DNA of 64,000 nucleotides from Nitrospira sp. (GTDB taxonomy: Bacteria; Nitrospirota; Nitrospiria; Nitrospirales; Nitrospiraceae), in the NCBI GenBank assembly GCA_005116745.1, contig SWDS01000006.1:144935-208934 (forward strand). The letters are read 5' to 3'. How positions within the stretch are numbered: the first letter of the stretch is position 1; each line of letters opens with the position of its first letter. The notes under the pieces were generated by a model, which did not search any database, had not been told where the DNA came from, and was given only the letters and a program-made list of their open reading frames with translations. Both the position numbers and the translations under genes were made by a program. This document shows, in pieces, positions 43,512-54,912 of this stretch.

Positions 43512-43741
43512 TCATACTCGATACAGCTCCCTCCGATTTCCAGCTAGTGCCTCCGGGCCATTTGGATCTAGACTTTCGCCTAATCTCATAGGACACTAGC
43601 CCCCTCCTGAGGTCTTTAATCTTAGGAAGCAGTAGGCTGGGCTGTCACCATCAACCAGCATTCGCCACGTGAGATAGTCGCTCCTGTGAGTTGAGCTGGC
43701 TGTTGAGGTGCTGTCGGCGTCGCGCGGTAAGGAGCCTCATC

Positions 43742-46700
43742 ATGAGTCCTACGAGTCACCGTCCTGAATTGGATCTGCTGCGAAGGCAGGTTGCCGATCT
43801 CGCACGTGAGCTTGCCGAACGGGATCGAGTGTTGCACGAACAGACTCGTCACTTCGAGGTCGCACAAGCTCTTGCCCACCTGGGGAGTTGGAATTGGAAC
43901 ATCGCAAGCGGCGAGGTGGAATGGTCCGACGAACTCTACCGGATCTTCGGCTATCAACCTCGAGCGCGAGCGATCACCTTCGACAGCTTTGTGTCGGCGG
44001 TACTGCCGGACGATCATGATCGGGTGCTGGCGTCGATCGATGACGCGTTGGCAGGGGCCGCAGCCCACGACATGGAATGCCGAATCGTCCGCCCCGATGG
44101 TGCAGTACGGACGATTCATTGTTGTGGCGAGGTCGTGCGCGATAGCGGCGGTCAACCCCTTCGTATGTTCGGGACGGCCTTGGACATTACCGATCGCAAG
44201 CCTACGGAGGCGATGCTTGGGACTTCGGAAGAAAGACTTCGACAGGCCCTCCGTGCGTCAGGGACTGGACTCTGGGAATGGAACACGGAAACGAACGACG
44301 TGGTCTTTTCCGAGGAATGGAAACGCCAGCTGGGATACGAGCCGGTGGAGCTTGCAGATTCTTTTGAAGCCTGGATGACGCGTCTCCACCCAGAGGATCG
44401 TGATGCGGCGATGGCCTACGTACAAGACTACGTGTCTCATCGCAAGGGAGACTATCGACAGGAATTCAGGCTGCGTCACAAAGACGGGACATATCGATGG
44501 ATTGAAGCACGAGCCTCATTTGTCACAGAGCCAGATGGCCGACAGATTTACCTTCTCGGATCACATACCGATATTACTGATCGCAAGCGGATGGAGGAGT
44601 CGGTACGGGAGAGCGAAGAATGGTACAGGACGTTGGTCGAGCTTTCACCATCGGGGGTCTTCGTCAGTGAAGAACAAGCAGTTTACGTCAACCACATGGA
44701 CGCCGTCCGCGATCTCGCCGAGCGCAACCGCGCGCAGGCCGCATTGCGCGCGAGCGAAGAGCGGCTGCGGCTAGCAATGGACGCCGCGGATTTAGGGTCA
44801 TGGGATGTGGATATCCGGACCGGCGAAGCCGTGTGGAATCGCCGCCATGCACTCATGCAAGGCTACACACCGGATGACGGTCCCGTCTCAATTCACCGAT
44901 GGAAAGATCGGATTCATCCGGATGATTTCGATCGCGTTATGGTGGAAGTCGAGCTGGCTAAAGAGACGCAGGAGTTATTTTCCGTCGAGCATCGGACGGT
45001 TTGGGGCGACGGCGCTGAGGAGCGCTGGCTCTCGTTGTATGGGCGATTCTTTTACGACAAGACCGGTGTCCCAGTTCGTTTCAGCGGCGTATCGATCGAC
45101 ATCACCGAGCGCACTCGTGCACAAGAGGCGCTACGGGAGAGCGAAGCTCGGTGGCAGCAGTTCGCTGAGTCGGTCGGTTCAGCATTCTGGATCGCGGATG
45201 TGACGCCGGAGGGGAAGAAAGTCTTGTATGTCAACTCCGCATTCACCTCTATTTGGGGCATTGAGCGGGAGGAGATATATCAAAACTGGTTTCTCTGGCT
45301 CGACTCGATCCACCCGGATGACCGTGCGCGGGTGACGGCAAACCATGATCGGTTTGTTGGTGGAGGGGCGACCGCGGTATTCCATTGTGAGTACCGGATT
45401 GTGGGACGAGATGGTCATGTCCGCTGGATTTCCGATCGCCGCGTCAGGATGGCGGGGTGGGAGAATCGCGTTGCCGGTATTGCGGAGGATATCACGCACC
45501 ACAAGCAACAGTTGGCGCTGATGGCCCAAACAGAGGCGATCGGAAAAATCGGGGGATGGGAGTTAGATTTCCTGACGAACCGTCTGTGGTGGAGCGAGGA
45601 AACCTACCGGTTGCACGAGACCACGCCGGAATTGTACAACCCGACGGTGGAAACGGCGTTGGAATTCTATACAGCCGAACGCCGGCCCCTTCTCGCTGAG
45701 GCACTTGAAAAAGCGGTGACCCAGGGGGTGTCTTGGGATCTGGAGTTAGATCTTGTCTCAGCGAAGGGCCGCCAGATTGCAGTCCGGGCAGTCGGGAAGG
45801 TCGAAGTCGTGAACGATCGGGCAGTTCGGGCCTACGGAACGTTCCAAGATATTTCGGAACGCAAATGGGCAGAAGCAGCCCTCCGGAGAGCGCATGATGA
45901 ATTGGAGCGCAAGGTCATTGAGCGCACTGCAGAATTGCAGGCCAGTGAAGATCGCTATGCGCGTGCTACGGCCATCGGCAAGGTTGGAGTCTGGGAATTA
46001 GACATCGTCACAGGTGCATACCACGCAGATGCCAATCTCAAAGCCCTCTTTGGCTATGCTTCTGAAGAACTCTCCACAGATCCCTATATGTGGCTGAAGC
46101 TGGTCCATCCGGACGACCAGCCGGTTGCCATGAAAAACTGGGAATTGATCCAAAGCGGAGCAGCCGAGGCCTGTCACTACGAGCTGAGAATGGTTAAGAA
46201 AGACGGATCCAGGGTGTGGACTGATGTTCGATGCCACAGCGTTCGTGATCAGAACGGGCGATTGACGCACCTGATCGGCGCCACCGTCGACATTACGGAG
46301 CGCAAGCAAGCGGAACAAACATTGTCCGAGAGCGAGGTACGGTTCCGCACTTTAGTTGCAAATATTCCAGGCGCAATCTATCGCTGCGCCGTGGACAGGG
46401 AGTGGACGATGTCTTATCTCAGCAATGTGATTGAGAGCATCGTCGGTTATCCGGCCACGGAGTTCATCGCCAACCACACCCGTTCTTACGCCAGTGTGAT
46501 TCACCCAGATGATCGCCAGCTGGTGGAGGAGACGACCTGGACGAGCTTGCAGGAGCACCGTCCATATATCATCGAGTACCGTCTTATCCACGCGAATGGT
46601 ACCGTCCGGTGGGTTTATGAAAAAGGTCAGGGGGTGTTCACCCCGAATGGCGAGGTGCGTTTCCTCGACGGCGCGATCTTCGATGTCACCGAGCGCAGGC

Positions 46701-48874
46701 ATGCGGGGGAAGCCCTTCGCGAAAGCGAAGAACGATTCTCCAAAGCCTTCCGAACAAGCCCTCATCCGATCGGGATCACGGAGGTCGCAACGGGCCGATG
46801 TATTGAGGTGAACGATGCCTGTCTTGAGCTGTTCGGTTTTCGTCGAGAGGAAGTGATCGGAAACTCCACGTTGATACTAGGTATCTGGCCGAATCTCGAA
46901 GAGAGAGTGCGGGTCATCGAGCGTTTGAAAGCTGGGCAGCCGGTGCGCAACATGGAGTTTGCTTTAAAGGTCAAATCGGGTGCAGTACGCTACCTTCTGG
47001 CCTCCGCTGATCTCGCGGAGCTCAACGGAACGCTCTGTATTGTGACCGTCGCTAATGATATCACGGACCGTAAGCAAGCCGAAGAAGCGCTCCGCAGGAG
47101 CGAAGAGCGTTTTGCGAAGGCGTTCCAAGCCAGTCCCCATCCGGTCGTCCTTAGCGAGCTGGACTCTGGTCTCGTGGTAGACGCTAATGATGCCGCCTGT
47201 CAGCTGTTCGCTTATCGTAAAGAAGAAGTCGTAGGACGCACGACGCAAGAAATAGGACTCTGGCCCTCGACAGAGGCACGGGACCGTTATCTCGAACTGT
47301 TGAAGCGCCAGGGATCAGTCCGCAACGTGGAAGTGGCGCTACGAAGCAAGAGTGGCGAAATTCGCCAGTGCCTCTTGTCATCGGAACTGATCGAGTTGAA
47401 CGGCAAGCAGTGCAGTGTGACGGTTGGCAACGATATTACTGAGAGCAAGCGCCTGGAGCGAGCGCTCCGGTTGACCCAGTTCTCCGTGGATCAAGCCGTC
47501 GAGGCGATCTTGTGGTTAGACCCGAACGCTCGAATATTCAGCGTTAATGATACCGCATGCCAAATGTTGGAGTACTCACGCGAGCAACTGATGGCCATGA
47601 CGGTCCATGATATTGACCCAAATTTCCCCGTGGAGCGGTGGGTGACTCATTGGAATTATCTCAAAGAGCAGGGAGCGTTGATATTCGATGCGAAGTTTTG
47701 GTCACGAACTGGACTCGTCTTGCAGACGGACGTGACGGTCAATTATCTGCAACATGAAGGGAAAGAGTACGCCTGCATGATCTTGCGAGACGTTGCAGAG
47801 CGAAAGCGGGCGGAAGCCGAGCTCCGTCGCTCCCATACATTCTTGCGACAAGTCATCGACACCGATCCCGATCTTATCTTTGCCAAGGATCGCGACGGTC
47901 GTTTTACGGTGGCCAACAAGGCTGTGGCCGATTGGTATGGCACGACGGTGGAAGAATTGATCGGGAAATCGGATTCCGACTTCAATGCAAATGCCGAAGA
48001 GGTGGAGTTCTTTCGGCGGAGCGATCTTGAGGTGATCTATTCCGGGAGAGATCGGTTCATTCCGGAGGAAAAGATCACCGATGCCGGGGGAAAGACGCGT
48101 TGGTTACAGACGGTCAAGCGACCGATTTTCGACGATCAAGGACAGGTTCACATGGTGCTGGGTGCCGCGACGGATATCACGGAGCGCAAACGGATGGAGG
48201 AGATCCTCGTACGACGTGAACGAGATTTGAGCGCCGCACTTCAAGAGCGAGAGCGGATCAGTCAAGACCTCCACGATGGTATTCTCCAGTCCCTGTATGC
48301 TGTTGGACTTGGGTTAGAAGCGTGTAAGCCACTGATCAGGAAGCGACGCGATCCTGTGGCGGAGAAGTTCATGGTGGCACTGGATCAGGCCATTAGACAG
48401 CTCAACCAGGTCATGTCAGAAGTCCGGAATTTCATTGCCGGCCTCGAATCTCAAGTGTTGCAGGGTGGAGACTTTTCGACCGCCTTGCGGACGATGGTCG
48501 AAACGATGTCTCTCTCTTCTTCCATCAGATGCCGGGTCAGAATCGACGACGCGGCCGCACAGCGGCTTTCCACCGAACAGGCACTCCATATCATCAACAT
48601 CGTACGGGAGGGGGTGAGTAATGCATTGCGCCACAGCCGTGCCAAACAGATCACCGTCTCGCTTCGTGATCTCATCCGCTCTGATCGTCTGGCCGTGACG
48701 GATGACGGCATCGGGTTTAGTACCCGCTCAGTTCAGGGGGTTGGCCATGGATTAGTCAACATGGCGGCACGGGCTCAAAAAGTCAGGGGCTTGTTCGCCA
48801 TCCAGTCGAAACCTGACAAGGGGACGAGGGTCTCACTCGATCTTCCAAAGGAGACGCCTTATGCTCACACCTAA
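43742..48874 (+). CDS. giant cytoplasmic multi-PAS histidine kinase (NarL-type)
   Basis: 1710 residues from ATG 43742 (AAGGAG 8 bases before). No membrane segment is visible, so it is probably cytoplasmic. About eleven full PAS/PAC units in series are each closed by a DITDRK/DITERK-like motif, and a shortened unit lies near 44608-44755. A short coiled stretch (RAHDELERKVIERTAEL) sits between units six and seven. The C-terminal kinase is HisKA_3 type: QDLHDGILQSLYAVGLGLEA with the phosphoacceptor His, N box REGVSNALRHSRA and G1 TDDGIGFS, all intact. The downstream NarL-type regulator overlaps by 14 bases and is its likely partner. Such PAS arrays integrate redox, light or small-molecule cues; the ligand is unknown. 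Confidence 0.92.
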   Translation: MSPTSHRPELDLLRRQVADLARELAERDRVLHEQTRHFEVAQALAHLGSWNWNIASGEVEWSDELYRIFGYQPRARAITFDSFVSAVLPDDHDRVLASIDDALAGAAAHDMECRIVRPDGAVRTIHCCGEVVRDSGGQPLRMFGTALDITDRKPTEAMLGTSEERLRQALRASGTGLWEWNTETNDVVFSEEWKRQLGYEPVELADSFEAWMTRLHPEDRDAAMAYVQDYVSHRKGDYRQEFRLRHKDGTYRWIEARASFVTEPDGRQIYLLGSHTDITDRKRMEESVRESEEWYRTLVELSPSGVFVSEEQAVYVNHMDAVRDLAERNRAQAALRASEERLRLAMDAADLGSWDVDIRTGEAVWNRRHALMQGYTPDDGPVSIHRWKDRIHPDDFDRVMVEVELAKETQELFSVEHRTVWGDGAEERWLSLYGRFFYDKTGVPVRFSGVSIDITERTRAQEALRESEARWQQFAESVGSAFWIADVTPEGKKVLYVNSAFTSIWGIEREEIYQNWFLWLDSIHPDDRARVTANHDRFVGGGATAVFHCEYRIVGRDGHVRWISDRRVRMAGWENRVAGIAEDITHHKQQLALMAQTEAIGKIGGWELDFLTNRLWWSEETYRLHETTPELYNPTVETALEFYTAERRPLLAEALEKAVTQGVSWDLELDLVSAKGRQIAVRAVGKVEVVNDRAVRAYGTFQDISERKWAEAALRRAHDELERKVIERTAELQASEDRYARATAIGKVGVWELDIVTGAYHADANLKALFGYASEELSTDPYMWLKLVHPDDQPVAMKNWELIQSGAAEACHYELRMVKKDGSRVWTDVRCHSVRDQNGRLTHLIGATVDITERKQAEQTLSESEVRFRTLVANIPGAIYRCAVDREWTMSYLSNVIESIVGYPATEFIANHTRSYASVIHPDDRQLVEETTWTSLQEHRPYIIEYRLIHANGTVRWVYEKGQGVFTPNGEVRFLDGAIFDVTERRHAGEALRESEERFSKAFRTSPHPIGITEVATGRCIEVNDACLELFGFRREEVIGNSTLILGIWPNLEERVRVIERLKAGQPVRNMEFALKVKSGAVRYLLASADLAELNGTLCIVTVANDITDRKQAEEALRRSEERFAKAFQASPHPVVLSELDSGLVVDANDAACQLFAYRKEEVVGRTTQEIGLWPSTEARDRYLELLKRQGSVRNVEVALRSKSGEIRQCLLSSELIELNGKQCSVTVGNDITESKRLERALRLTQFSVDQAVEAILWLDPNARIFSVNDTACQMLEYSREQLMAMTVHDIDPNFPVERWVTHWNYLKEQGALIFDAKFWSRTGLVLQTDVTVNYLQHEGKEYACMILRDVAERKRAEAELRRSHTFLRQVIDTDPDLIFAKDRDGRFTVANKAVADWYGTTVEELIGKSDSDFNANAEEVEFFRRSDLEVIYSGRDRFIPEEKITDAGGKTRWLQTVKRPIFDDQGQVHMVLGAATDITERKRMEEILVRRERDLSAALQERERISQDLHDGILQSLYAVGLGLEACKPLIRKRRDPVAEKFMVALDQAIRQLNQVMSEVRNFIAGLESQVLQGGDFSTALRTMVETMSLSSSIRCRVRIDDAAAQRLSTEQALHIINIVREGVSNALRHSRAKQITVSLRDLIRSDRLAVTDDGIGFSTRSVQGVGHGLVNMAARAQKVRGLFAIQSKPDKGTRVSLDLPKETPYAHT

Positions 48875-49517
48875 AACTCATGGTATTCGAGTCCTGCTCG
48901 TCGATGATCATGAGGTCATTCGCGTGGGACTGCGGACGGTGTTCGGCCAAACCCAGGGCATCGTGGTTGTAGGAGAAGCGAGCACCATGGAGGAGGCCGT
49001 CCAGCAAGCGCAGAGATTGAAGCCCGACGTGATCTTGATGGATGTCCGACTACCGGACGGGTCCGGTATCGATGCCTGTCGGGAGATTCTCGGAGCGCTG
49101 CCGGAGACACGGATCATTTTCCTGACGTCCTTTGCTGACGACGACTCCGTGCTCGCCGCCGTGCTCGCCGGCGCTCATGGCTATGTCCTTAAAGAAATCG
49201 ATTCACCCGCTTTGCTCGAAGCCATCCGCTCGGTGGCGAAGGGTCAATCGATCTTGGACTCTCATGTGACGGAACAGGCTCTGCGGTGGCTGAGAGGGCT
49301 TCACGATCTGCCAGCAACCTCTGGTACGGACCAACTGTCCGCTCAGGAAGAACGAGTCGTTGCGTTGGTTGCCGAGGGAAAGACCAACAAGGAAATTGCC
49401 GCCGCGCTCGGGCTCAGCGACAAGACCGTGAAGAACTACTTGGCCAACGTCTTTCAAAAACTTCGCATCACCCGGCGTGCGCAAGCGGCTGCCTTTTTTG
49501 TGAAACGGCAAGGATGA
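48861..49517 (+). CDS. NarL/FixJ-family response regulator
   Basis: 218 residues. The receiver domain (1-125) has the acidic pair in LLVDDHEV, phospho-Asp in VILMDVRLPDGSG and Lys in GYVLKEI. The C-terminal LuxR helix-turn-helix is LSAQEERVVALVAEGKTNKE, ending in LSDKTVKNYLANVF. It overlaps the multi-PAS kinase by 14 bases, so they form one translational unit and a cognate pair. Confidence 0.95.
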   Translation: MLTPKTHGIRVLLVDDHEVIRVGLRTVFGQTQGIVVVGEASTMEEAVQQAQRLKPDVILMDVRLPDGSGIDACREILGALPETRIIFLTSFADDDSVLAAVLAGAHGYVLKEIDSPALLEAIRSVAKGQSILDSHVTEQALRWLRGLHDLPATSGTDQLSAQEERVVALVAEGKTNKEIAAALGLSDKTVKNYLANVFQKLRITRRAQAAAFFVKRQG

Positions 49518-52680: not shown

Positions 52681-54912
52681 TCAATTCTCGATCGGGTCGA
52701 TATCGATGACGAATTTGATTCGTCCCTTGCGGTACTCTCTCTCCATTTTCTGGACTGAATCATGGATCCGTCGGCTGAGAGTGGTGCGATCCGTTCCCTT
52801 TACCAAGAGGCGATACTGCTGACGGCCTTTGGAAGGCCTGCGTATCGCGGGGACGGGTCCTAAAACAATCAGCGGCTTCTGATCATGTGCGCTCTGTTCT
52901 AGATCTGCACCCCATCGCGTGGCGGCCTCTTCGACGGTTCTTAGGTCTTGCCCGGTTACCGAAAGATCAGCCAAATGACAGATGGGAGGATAATGAAGAA
53001 GCCGGCGTGCCGTGAATTCTTCATTGTAAAATTGATTGGGATCTCCTGAGATCAAGGCCTGTACAGCATGATGTGTAGGAAGGCGCGTCTGTACGATGAC
53101 TCGACCTCCGGCGGACGCCGGACATGCGAGGTTGGCAGCATCAACCAGTAGATGATAGGTCCGCTCCGCCGCTCGAAAGTCTGAGACGTGCAACCCGGAA
53201 TCTGCCTGAAGGATCCCCACTAAGCCGTAGCGGGGTAGTGGCTCTCGGCTAAACAGTGCTTGGGTCCCGATAAGAACATCCCACACACCTGACCTGGCAC
53301 CTTCCCGCAGAGCCTGAGCGGACGCCGAATGCCGGAGCGTATCACCATCGAGCCGGGCGACGTTGGCTTGTGGGAATATACGACGAACTTCGGTTTCAAC
53401 ACGCTCGGTGCCACCACCAACAGGGCTTATATGGGGAGTACGGCACGAAGGACAGAGGTCGGGCAACCGATCTGCCTTACCACAGTAGCGGCAAGCCAGC
53501 CTGCCGGCTTCACGATAATAGGTCAGCGGTACGATACAGGACTCGCAACGAGGGACCCAGCCACAGTCTCGACACACCAAGGTCCCGGCGTACCCTTTCC
53601 TGTTAAGAAAGAGCAGGATCTTGTCACGGTTCTGTAGGGCGTCGTGCATTGCCCGGATGAGGGCGTGGCTAAGGAGGGTTCTTGCAGACACGTTGCGGAG
53701 GTCAACGAGCTCAATTGTAGGTTGAAGAGCCGCTTCTTGTGGCACGTGATGGATCTCCGCTTCGGTATCGAACCTCGATTCAAGAGATGGATGAGCGGAT
53801 GCCAGCACAACGAGCGCGTGCTCGCTCTCCGCTCTCAAGCTAGCCACCTCTCTGGCATGATAACGAGGCTCCTGAGGCTCTTTCAGAGCAGGGTCCTCTT
53901 CTCCCTCCACCCAGATGAGCCCGATCGATTGAAGCGGCGAAAATATGGCCGAACGGGTTCCTACGACTACCGAGGGAGTCTGCCCCTGGTTCTGTGGCCA
54001 TCGAGCAGATTGTGAAGATGGGTGTGCGAGGGTAATTTGGAGGCCAGTGAGTCTTGCGAGCTGTTGTGTCAACCGGGATGCTCTTGCGATCTCGCCTGTG
54101 AGAACTAGAGCGGATCGCTTCATTGAGTGGGTTTGCTGAATGGCGTCGGCAAGCCGGTGGAGCCGGTGTTCCCATGAGGCGTGGAGCACGAGCTTTTTCA
54201 TGTGATTGTTTTGGAGGCAGTGTGCGATATGCGCTTTCCATGAGGAGTCGATCTTCGGAGGCGTGTCAGTGGGCAGAATGCCATCTTCTGGAACTCGACG
54301 ATCAGACTCGCCTGCGGTGGGTGTCCTACGTGGCTTTTGGGACTCAACGTTGGCGTTGTTCGAAGGTATGAGTGTGATCCAGGACGTGTTGATGAGGGCG
54401 TCGATCCCCCGCACGATGTTTCCCTGTCGAGGTGCTTGAAGTGTGGAGGCCAGAATCCCTAGAGTTCGTCGGGCAATTCGGTCCAGAATCGGCTTCAGAT
54501 CGTCTGGACAAAGGCCGGCTTCCAGGGCCGCGCAACCCTGCGGAGTGGCCACGTATCGTGCGGGGGAGGTTTTTCGCGTTGCCAGCGAGGGCAATATGAG
54601 TCGAAGACACTGGCCCCAGGGTGCAACGTAATGCTCTGCGATCTTGCGAGAGAGTTCGAACAGCGCTGGAGACAGTGTGGAAGTTTGTCCATCGCGGGCC
54701 AGAGAGTGGATCTCTCTAAGGGAAGTGGATTTTATCTCGGTCGCAAGGTGGTGACTCAGCGAGATGACAACCCCTTCCAGCACCATATGTCCAAACGGGA
54801 CGAGGACGCGGTGCCCTATGGCTAGGGTCTGAGCTAAAGTGGGAGGGACGAGATAGGTGAAGGCCTTTGCAATATGGCGAGGTACTATAACGTCTGCATA
54901 GAGTGTCTGCAT
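52681..54912 (-). CDS. priA: PriA-family primosome protein lacking helicase motifs
   Basis: 743 residues from the ATG at 54912, which aligns with the normal PriA N-terminus (ADVIVPRHIAKAFTYLVPP); an in-frame Met at 54948 is possible. The 3'-end-binding domain, winged helix and zinc-binding cysteines (CRDC, CESC, CRYC, CPSC) are present, and VVVGTRSAIFSPL and SDFRAAERTYHLL identify the family. The ATPase motifs are gone: Walker A (GSGKT in PriA) is replaced at about 54145-54190 (LHASWEHRLHR), DEEH reads EGEED near 53900, and the GRAGR arginine motif reads ANLACPAS near 53110-53140. Probably a structural replication-restart factor without helicase activity. Confidence 0.9.
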   Translation of the reverse strand: MQTLYADVIVPRHIAKAFTYLVPPTLAQTLAIGHRVLVPFGHMVLEGVVISLSHHLATEIKSTSLREIHSLARDGQTSTLSPALFELSRKIAEHYVAPWGQCLRLILPSLATRKTSPARYVATPQGCAALEAGLCPDDLKPILDRIARRTLGILASTLQAPRQGNIVRGIDALINTSWITLIPSNNANVESQKPRRTPTAGESDRRVPEDGILPTDTPPKIDSSWKAHIAHCLQNNHMKKLVLHASWEHRLHRLADAIQQTHSMKRSALVLTGEIARASRLTQQLARLTGLQITLAHPSSQSARWPQNQGQTPSVVVGTRSAIFSPLQSIGLIWVEGEEDPALKEPQEPRYHAREVASLRAESEHALVVLASAHPSLESRFDTEAEIHHVPQEAALQPTIELVDLRNVSARTLLSHALIRAMHDALQNRDKILLFLNRKGYAGTLVCRDCGWVPRCESCIVPLTYYREAGRLACRYCGKADRLPDLCPSCRTPHISPVGGGTERVETEVRRIFPQANVARLDGDTLRHSASAQALREGARSGVWDVLIGTQALFSREPLPRYGLVGILQADSGLHVSDFRAAERTYHLLVDAANLACPASAGGRVIVQTRLPTHHAVQALISGDPNQFYNEEFTARRLLHYPPICHLADLSVTGQDLRTVEEAATRWGADLEQSAHDQKPLIVLGPVPAIRRPSKGRQQYRLLVKGTDRTTLSRRIHDSVQKMEREYRKGRIKFVIDIDPIEN

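Follow-up and report, generated by a model that had tools for sequence, protein, structure and literature searches.

A PriA without helicase motifs and an SSB without its canonical tip in Nitrospirales

The only PriA encoded in the Nitrospira sp. genome studied here has lost the sequence motifs of an active helicase and remains a full-length protein under constraint; the best explanation, which in our judgement is probably correct, is that it is a pseudohelicase that acts as an ATP-independent fork-recognition clamp and recruits DnaB. Most bacteria have retained a PriA with helicase activity, though E. coli can dispense with that activity, and why it is retained is a long-standing question. 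Nitrospira are major nitrite oxidisers and include the comammox bacteria, and in the order Nitrospirales the restart of broken replication forks probably follows an unusual path that needs no motor. Besides the motor, the PriA pocket in which the C-terminal tip of the single-stranded DNA-binding protein (SSB) docks is eroded, and the SSB tip itself is gone, which corrects the earlier interpretation of this gene. For a specialist, the surprise would lie in this order-wide pairing of a changed SSB tip with a changed PriA pocket.

A full-length PriA with erased helicase motifs

The gene occupies positions 52681..54912 of the minus strand of the window (the whole 64,000-nucleotide stretch of DNA that was analysed), with its ATG at 54912 and its stop at 52681, and encodes 743 amino acids. 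The initial annotation had called it a full-length member of the PriA family, and this is borne out by a TIGR00595 score of 366 bits (cut-off 230), by the Pfam domains 3'BD, Zn_ribbon_PriA and PriA_C, each above its cut-off and arranged as in PriA, by a near full-length alignment with E. coli PriA from the PDB, and by a predicted full-length PriA fold. The retained parts, all read on the minus strand, are the 3'-end-binding domain (3'BD; residues 1-108, 54589..54912; PF17764, 4.1e-21), whose conserved Y, G and P positions are kept in 98% of the order, the cysteine-rich zinc region (53443..53574; PF18319), with eight cysteines conserved at 100% (E. coli positions 436, 439, 445, 448, 463, 466, 476 and 479), and the C-terminal domain (CTD; residues 643-740, 52693..52986; PF18074, 6.3e-13). 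An inserted winged-helix domain region, placed by the secondary structure of the model at approximately residues 117-183 (54364..54564, boundary approximate), is the least constrained part of the protein (dN/dS 0.25-0.53 over residues 109-238). The closest named relatives, Nitrospira sp. RSF1, CG24B, RSF12 and RSF5, are 92-94% identical over the whole protein.

The genome is 99.96% complete in 32 contigs, and searches with both the protein and TIGR00595 found this single PriA and no second one, canonical or otherwise. The remaining matches, some of them to the RecG and Mfd-like loci, are weak and cover short stretches, which is what other SF2 helicases should give, and they were rejected as candidates for a second PriA. 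Elsewhere in the window, inspection of the translations by eye revealed a 1727-aa sensor protein (43691-48874), in which PAS-like segments recur many times and the end resembles a histidine kinase; a LuxR-type response regulator (48861-49517) comes next.

From the letters alone, the initial annotation had placed three motif losses, a replaced Walker A (GSGKT) near 54145-54190, DEEH reading EGEED near 53900 and the QVAGRAGR arginine motif reading AANLACPAS near 53107-53142, against a background of retained DNA-binding and zinc parts. Alignment with E. coli PriA confirms that a PriA without helicase motifs is real, and locates the changes, again on the minus strand. At motif I (54148..54180), ASWEHRLHRLA (aligned as A-SWEHRLHRLA) replaces GVTGSGKTEVYL, with Arg250 standing at the position of E. 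coli Lys230; at motif II (53893..53907), EGEED stands for DEEHD; and at motif VI (53119..53169), LLVDAANLACP replaces TQVAGRAGR, such that QVAGRAGR has become DAANLACP, immediately after a retained AER. Three further losses add to those first noticed: the Q-motif glutamine (E. coli Q203) is an aspartate; motif III (53779..53799) reads SAHPSLE for SATPSLE, the threonine being missing from 101 of 101 sequences of the order; and motif V (53233..53277) retains VLIGTQ with KGHD/KGHH turned into SREP. The protein therefore carries none of Walker A GSGKT, Walker B DEEH/Q and motif VI QxxGRxGR, the marks of an active SF2 PriA helicase. No intact Walker residues were found by alignment elsewhere in the protein, and since the alignment is continuous on both sides of the lost motifs and relatives at 30-94% identity share the loss, the motifs have not simply shifted.

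The loss is selective. We compared 26 canonical PriA sequences (25 from Nitrospirota plus that of E. coli) with the 101 usable sequences of the order, and the residues that are invariant or nearly so in the canonical set have practically vanished from the order: K230 and T231 are kept in 1% each, and T358, R584, R587, K544 and Q203 in 0%. The eight cysteines and G302, R304, N426, R427, G429, D567, F568, R569, E572, P631, P632, G674 and P675 are kept in 91-100%. Since ATP-binding and hydrolysis residues are gone while DNA-binding, zinc and structural residues mostly stand at 90-100%, the protein has not simply decayed throughout. Comparison with ten congeners by the Nei-Gojobori method gives dN/dS of 0.18-0.25 for the whole gene, 0.08-0.26 for lobe 1 and 0.08-0.19 for lobe 2, indicating that the dead lobes are themselves under constraint.

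Two apparent losses in Nitrospirota

An alignment across relatives, which the initial annotation had proposed as a check, establishes that the loss is lineage-wide: the motifs are missing from all 101 usable sequences of the order (families f1-f3) and from three sequences of f8, a further family of the same class. Families f4, f5, f6, f7, f9 and f10 of that class have intact motifs. A second clade of Nitrospirota, with 21 sequences (L141-L143, L145-L154, L156-L163) from 13 families (f15, f21, f23, f25-f31, f33, f35 and f38), has likewise lost motifs I, II, V and VI and, like the window PriA, kept the zinc cysteines. Elsewhere in the phylum the motifs are retained (f12, f16-f20, f22, f32, f34, f36, f37 and f39).

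In a tree built without the motif columns, pseudohelicases occupy two places (two state changes), each with canonical neighbours; SH-aLRT support is 94 for the order plus f8 and 100 for the second clade. The residue at the position of the catalytic lysine differs as well, being Arg in 89% of the order, Ser in f8 and Glu in 81% of the second clade. These two lines of evidence favour two losses. An AU test on a reduced set, in which f8 separates from the order, does not reject a single pseudohelicase clade (p-AU 0.26), and long branches are present. On balance, the second clade probably lost its motifs independently of Nitrospirales. For the order itself, the best explanation is that the ATPase site was lost in the common ancestor and never regained. 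With motif-intact relatives beside both apparent losses, Nitrospirota offer natural experiments on why the PriA helicase is kept.

Three congeners (G046, G007 and G017) in which PriA was not found were not accepted as true absences on the evidence of neighbouring genes. In G046 the upstream neighbour gene stops at the contig edge, so that priA probably lies in an assembly gap, and in G007 and G017 a clear orthologue of the neighbour gene of priA was likewise not found.

The SSB tail and the SSB-tip pocket of PriA

In E. coli, the SSB tip organises about twenty genome-maintenance proteins. E. coli SSB that lacks its last phenylalanine no longer binds its partners, and the loss kills the cell (PMC10164576). 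In K. pneumoniae PriA, the pocket for the SSB C-terminal tip is made of Trp82, Tyr86, Lys370, Arg697 and Gln701 (PMC5531588), which are W83, Y87, K371, R698 and Q702 in E. coli numbering; R698 and Q702 are variable everywhere, so we judged the pocket on W83, Y87 and K371 alone. In the window PriA, Lys90 and His94 stand at the positions of W83 and Y87 (54631..54645, minus strand) and Ile387 at that of K371 (53752..53754, minus strand), and the local alignment around the pocket is clean. The pattern W[YF][KR] is found in 1 of the 101 sequences of the order, in 23 of the 26 canonical sequences, in all three of f8 and in 19 of the 21 of the second clade.

The ligand has changed as well. The terminal Pro-Phe is missing from the main SSB in all 50 Nitrospirales genomes that were read (L234, L235, L239-L242, L252, L254, L255, L257, L258, L262, L264, L265, L267-L270, L272-L277, L279-L299 and L301-L305), while in 40 of 40 Nitrospirota that lie outside the order, among them members of f8 and of the second pseudohelicase clade, the main SSB ends in PF. 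The SSB of the window genome itself (L241, G000:C6:826261-826602, outside the window) ends in HDEPGYEMGEEG. The new tails are conserved in their own way: two acidic positions (92-94%) are followed by an aromatic one (96%) and then by an acidic one (100%). PF is likewise missing from the six additional SSB copies that were read in Nitrospirales. Several Nitrospirales carry extra SSB copies, some of them tailless and possibly derived from mobile elements (L300, L306-L310, G018:C4, G052:C1:2880289, G057:C2 and G288:C1:2157703).

Among the 85 genomes in which both genes were read, a PF-less SSB goes with an eroded pocket in 47 of 47 and a PF-ending SSB with an intact pocket in 34 of 38, an association that does not amount to statistically independent evidence across the 85 genomes since the loss of the SSB tip is one event on the tree. 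The other four genomes, all outside the order, combine a PF-ending SSB with an altered PriA pocket, and in S. aureus much of the pocket is missing from PriA though the SSB retains a DDDLPF tip (PMC5531588). Within the order plus f8, the pocket residues changed 3, 6 and 3 times on the tree and other conserved residues 0 or 1 times; such repeated change within the order is as expected if the SSB-tip ligand had gone. RecG, tried as a second test of the SSB-tip link (L340-L355 compared with E. coli RecG, L356), was uninformative, because its pocket residues (R467, R474 and R614 in E. coli) show little conservation in Nitrospirota, including those with a canonical SSB tip.

The second pseudohelicase clade thus differs from the window PriA not only in its place in the tree and in having Glu rather than Arg at K230, but also in its largely intact pocket and in the PF ending of the SSBs examined. 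An order of events that would fit these sequences is loss of the ATPase, then loss of the SSB tip in the Nitrospirales ancestor, then decay of the pocket; the ATPase is placed first because f8, although motorless, keeps both the pocket and the SSB tip. As far as could be found, the paired change of SSB tip and PriA pocket would be new, as one lineage-level event: our search, mostly of papers that can be read without subscription, turned up no paper that describes either the PriA loss or the SSB-tip loss in Nitrospira.

A broader proposal, on which we see the balance as even, is that Nitrospirales have rewired the SSB hub, with the PF tip giving way to a conserved acidic-aromatic tail, [DE][DE]Px[YF][DE], and with clients such as PriA losing the matching pocket, so that restart would require neither ATP hydrolysis by PriA nor the canonical SSB tip. 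If both the PriA and the SSB changes hold, genome maintenance in Nitrospira uses a differently wired replication-repair hub. This would also bear on whether SSB-tip inhibitors could be universal antibacterials.

A motorless fork clamp and its relation to known PriA proteins

The AlphaFold model of the window PriA has a pLDDT of 82.5, with both lobes folded with high confidence. Its top Foldseek match is 8fak, E. coli PriA on a fork, with the highest TM score (0.76 by query length), and VIA-align likewise places it on 8fak (Z 31.5; 3.0 Å over 619 residues) and at about 10 Å from ADP-bound 4nl4. A control model of a canonical Nitrospirota PriA lies nearest to the resting or ADP-bound forms 6dcr and 4nl4 (Z 32.4; 4.4 Å over 681 residues for 4nl4), 8fak scoring Z 29.6. 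With one model each, built on alignments 64 (window PriA) and 22 (control) sequences deep, the comparison suggests that the motorless PriA may sit by default in the fork-bound pore conformation that encloses single-stranded DNA. In fork-bound E. coli PriA, the CRR, HD2 and CTD form a pore around the lagging-strand ssDNA, with docking surfaces exposed (PMC10175261, PMC13377028).

The genomes encode candidate partners for such a protein. DciA is present in 18 of 18 genomes, a set that spans pseudohelicase and canonical PriA, RecG in nearly all of them, and DnaB in all eight genomes checked. The initial annotation had also proposed looking for an alternative, PriC-type helicase; none of the same 18 genomes has PriC above cut-off. 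With no PriC above cut-off and no second PriA, neither takes over restart. Two RecG cases stand apart: in a single-contig genome of the order (G290, f2), recG is split over two frames with an internal stop (G290:C1:1762921-1764643), which may reflect genuine decay or a frameshift introduced in sequencing, and G080 (f22, scored 100% complete) has nothing over the RecG cut-off and an Mfd-like match only.

We infer that Nitrospirales PriA lacks ATPase and unwinding activity, binds forks and recruits DnaB. The 3'BD and CTD would hold the leading-strand side of an abandoned fork, and the lagging-strand ssDNA would be enclosed, by the zinc domain, the CTD and both dead RecA-like lobes, in a pore like that of E. 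coli PriA on a fork; DnaB would then be recruited by the exposed surface, with DciA as the likely loader. A duplex lagging arm would be cleared by another enzyme (RecG, other helicases or nucleases), or such forks may not be restarted in this way. The retained step is thus most likely structure recognition and DnaB recruitment, and the dropped one the unwinding of the duplex lagging arm, given the behaviour of Deinococcus radiodurans PriA and the dispensability of the E. coli PriA ATPase, which is unnecessary for PriA-PriB restart in vivo (PMC10175261). The non-enzymatic loader first suggested for this gene accordingly stands as the best reading, supported by the lineage-wide loss, the lack of PriC and of a second PriA, and the presence of DnaB and DciA, with loading itself being the part we would expect rather than see. 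The erosion of the SSB-tip pocket, a normal route of PriA recruitment, counts against this explanation.

That the same protein has lost both its ATP site and its SSB-tip pocket could also mean that it has left restart, which would be done otherwise, for another role at forks or on DNA, for example in helping origins to fire or as a structural component at D-loops. We consider this improbable, because the domains that read the fork, the zinc region and the lobes have been retained under constraint, the model folds like fork-bound PriA, the searches gave neither a PriC nor another PriA as a replacement, and the Deinococcus precedent retained its contact with DnaB (PMC4504706). Far less probable still is a divergent helicase whose altered site works with ATP or with some other nucleotide. 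The lobes are fully folded in the predicted model and Arg250, at the Walker lysine position, belongs to a basic residue conserved across most of the order; however, the whole P-loop (GSGKT) is replaced by variable sequence, the Walker B Asp-Glu, the motif III Thr, motif V and both motif VI arginines are lost too, and K230R by itself is cited in PMC4504706 as abolishing both activities, ATPase and helicase, in the E. coli protein. That the gene is a decaying pseudogene or an assembly artefact, to which the disappearance of so many core helicase residues might point, is refuted: dozens of independent genomes, single-contig chromosomes included, carry it as an uninterrupted reading frame of full length, with dN/dS of about 0.2 and the same loss across the order.

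The proposed ATP-independent clamp is close to what is known from other bacteria. Compared with E. coli PriA (8fak, 6dgd) and K. pneumoniae PriA (4nl4, 4nl8), the window PriA shares the domain order, the eight cysteines, the 3'BD, the CTD and the lobes, but has neither the ATPase motifs nor the W-Y-K pocket for the SSB tip, and works in a setting where PriC is absent and DciA is the likely loader. The initial annotation describes actinobacterial PriA, too, as lacking the helicase motifs. The window PriA does not belong to that subfamily (PRK14873), for it scores 450 bits on general PriA models and no better than 213 bits on any PRK14873 model of NCBIfam, so that none of the latter is both its best match and above its cut-off. 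The proven precedent for a motorless PriA is instead that of Deinococcus-Thermus (PMC4504706): the D. radiodurans protein neither hydrolyses ATP nor unwinds DNA, but its binding to ssDNA and to forks is almost as good as that of E. coli PriA, and it contacts DnaB in vitro (PMC4504706). Both are orthologues with degenerate Walker A and B, and by sequence the window PriA is a pseudohelicase in the same sense, a PriA orthologue whose degenerate ATPase motifs are conserved across a lineage. The damage described in Deinococcus-Thermus is milder, with motifs I and II as poor matches and Lys changed to Arg in GKT (PMC4504706), whereas Nitrospirales, in a different phylum, have lost the whole P-loop, DEEH, the KGHD of motif V and motif VI outright, and have in addition an eroded SSB-tip pocket in PriA and an SSB without its canonical tip. 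Judged on these sequences, Nitrospirales PriA is a more extreme pseudohelicase than the Deinococcus kind.
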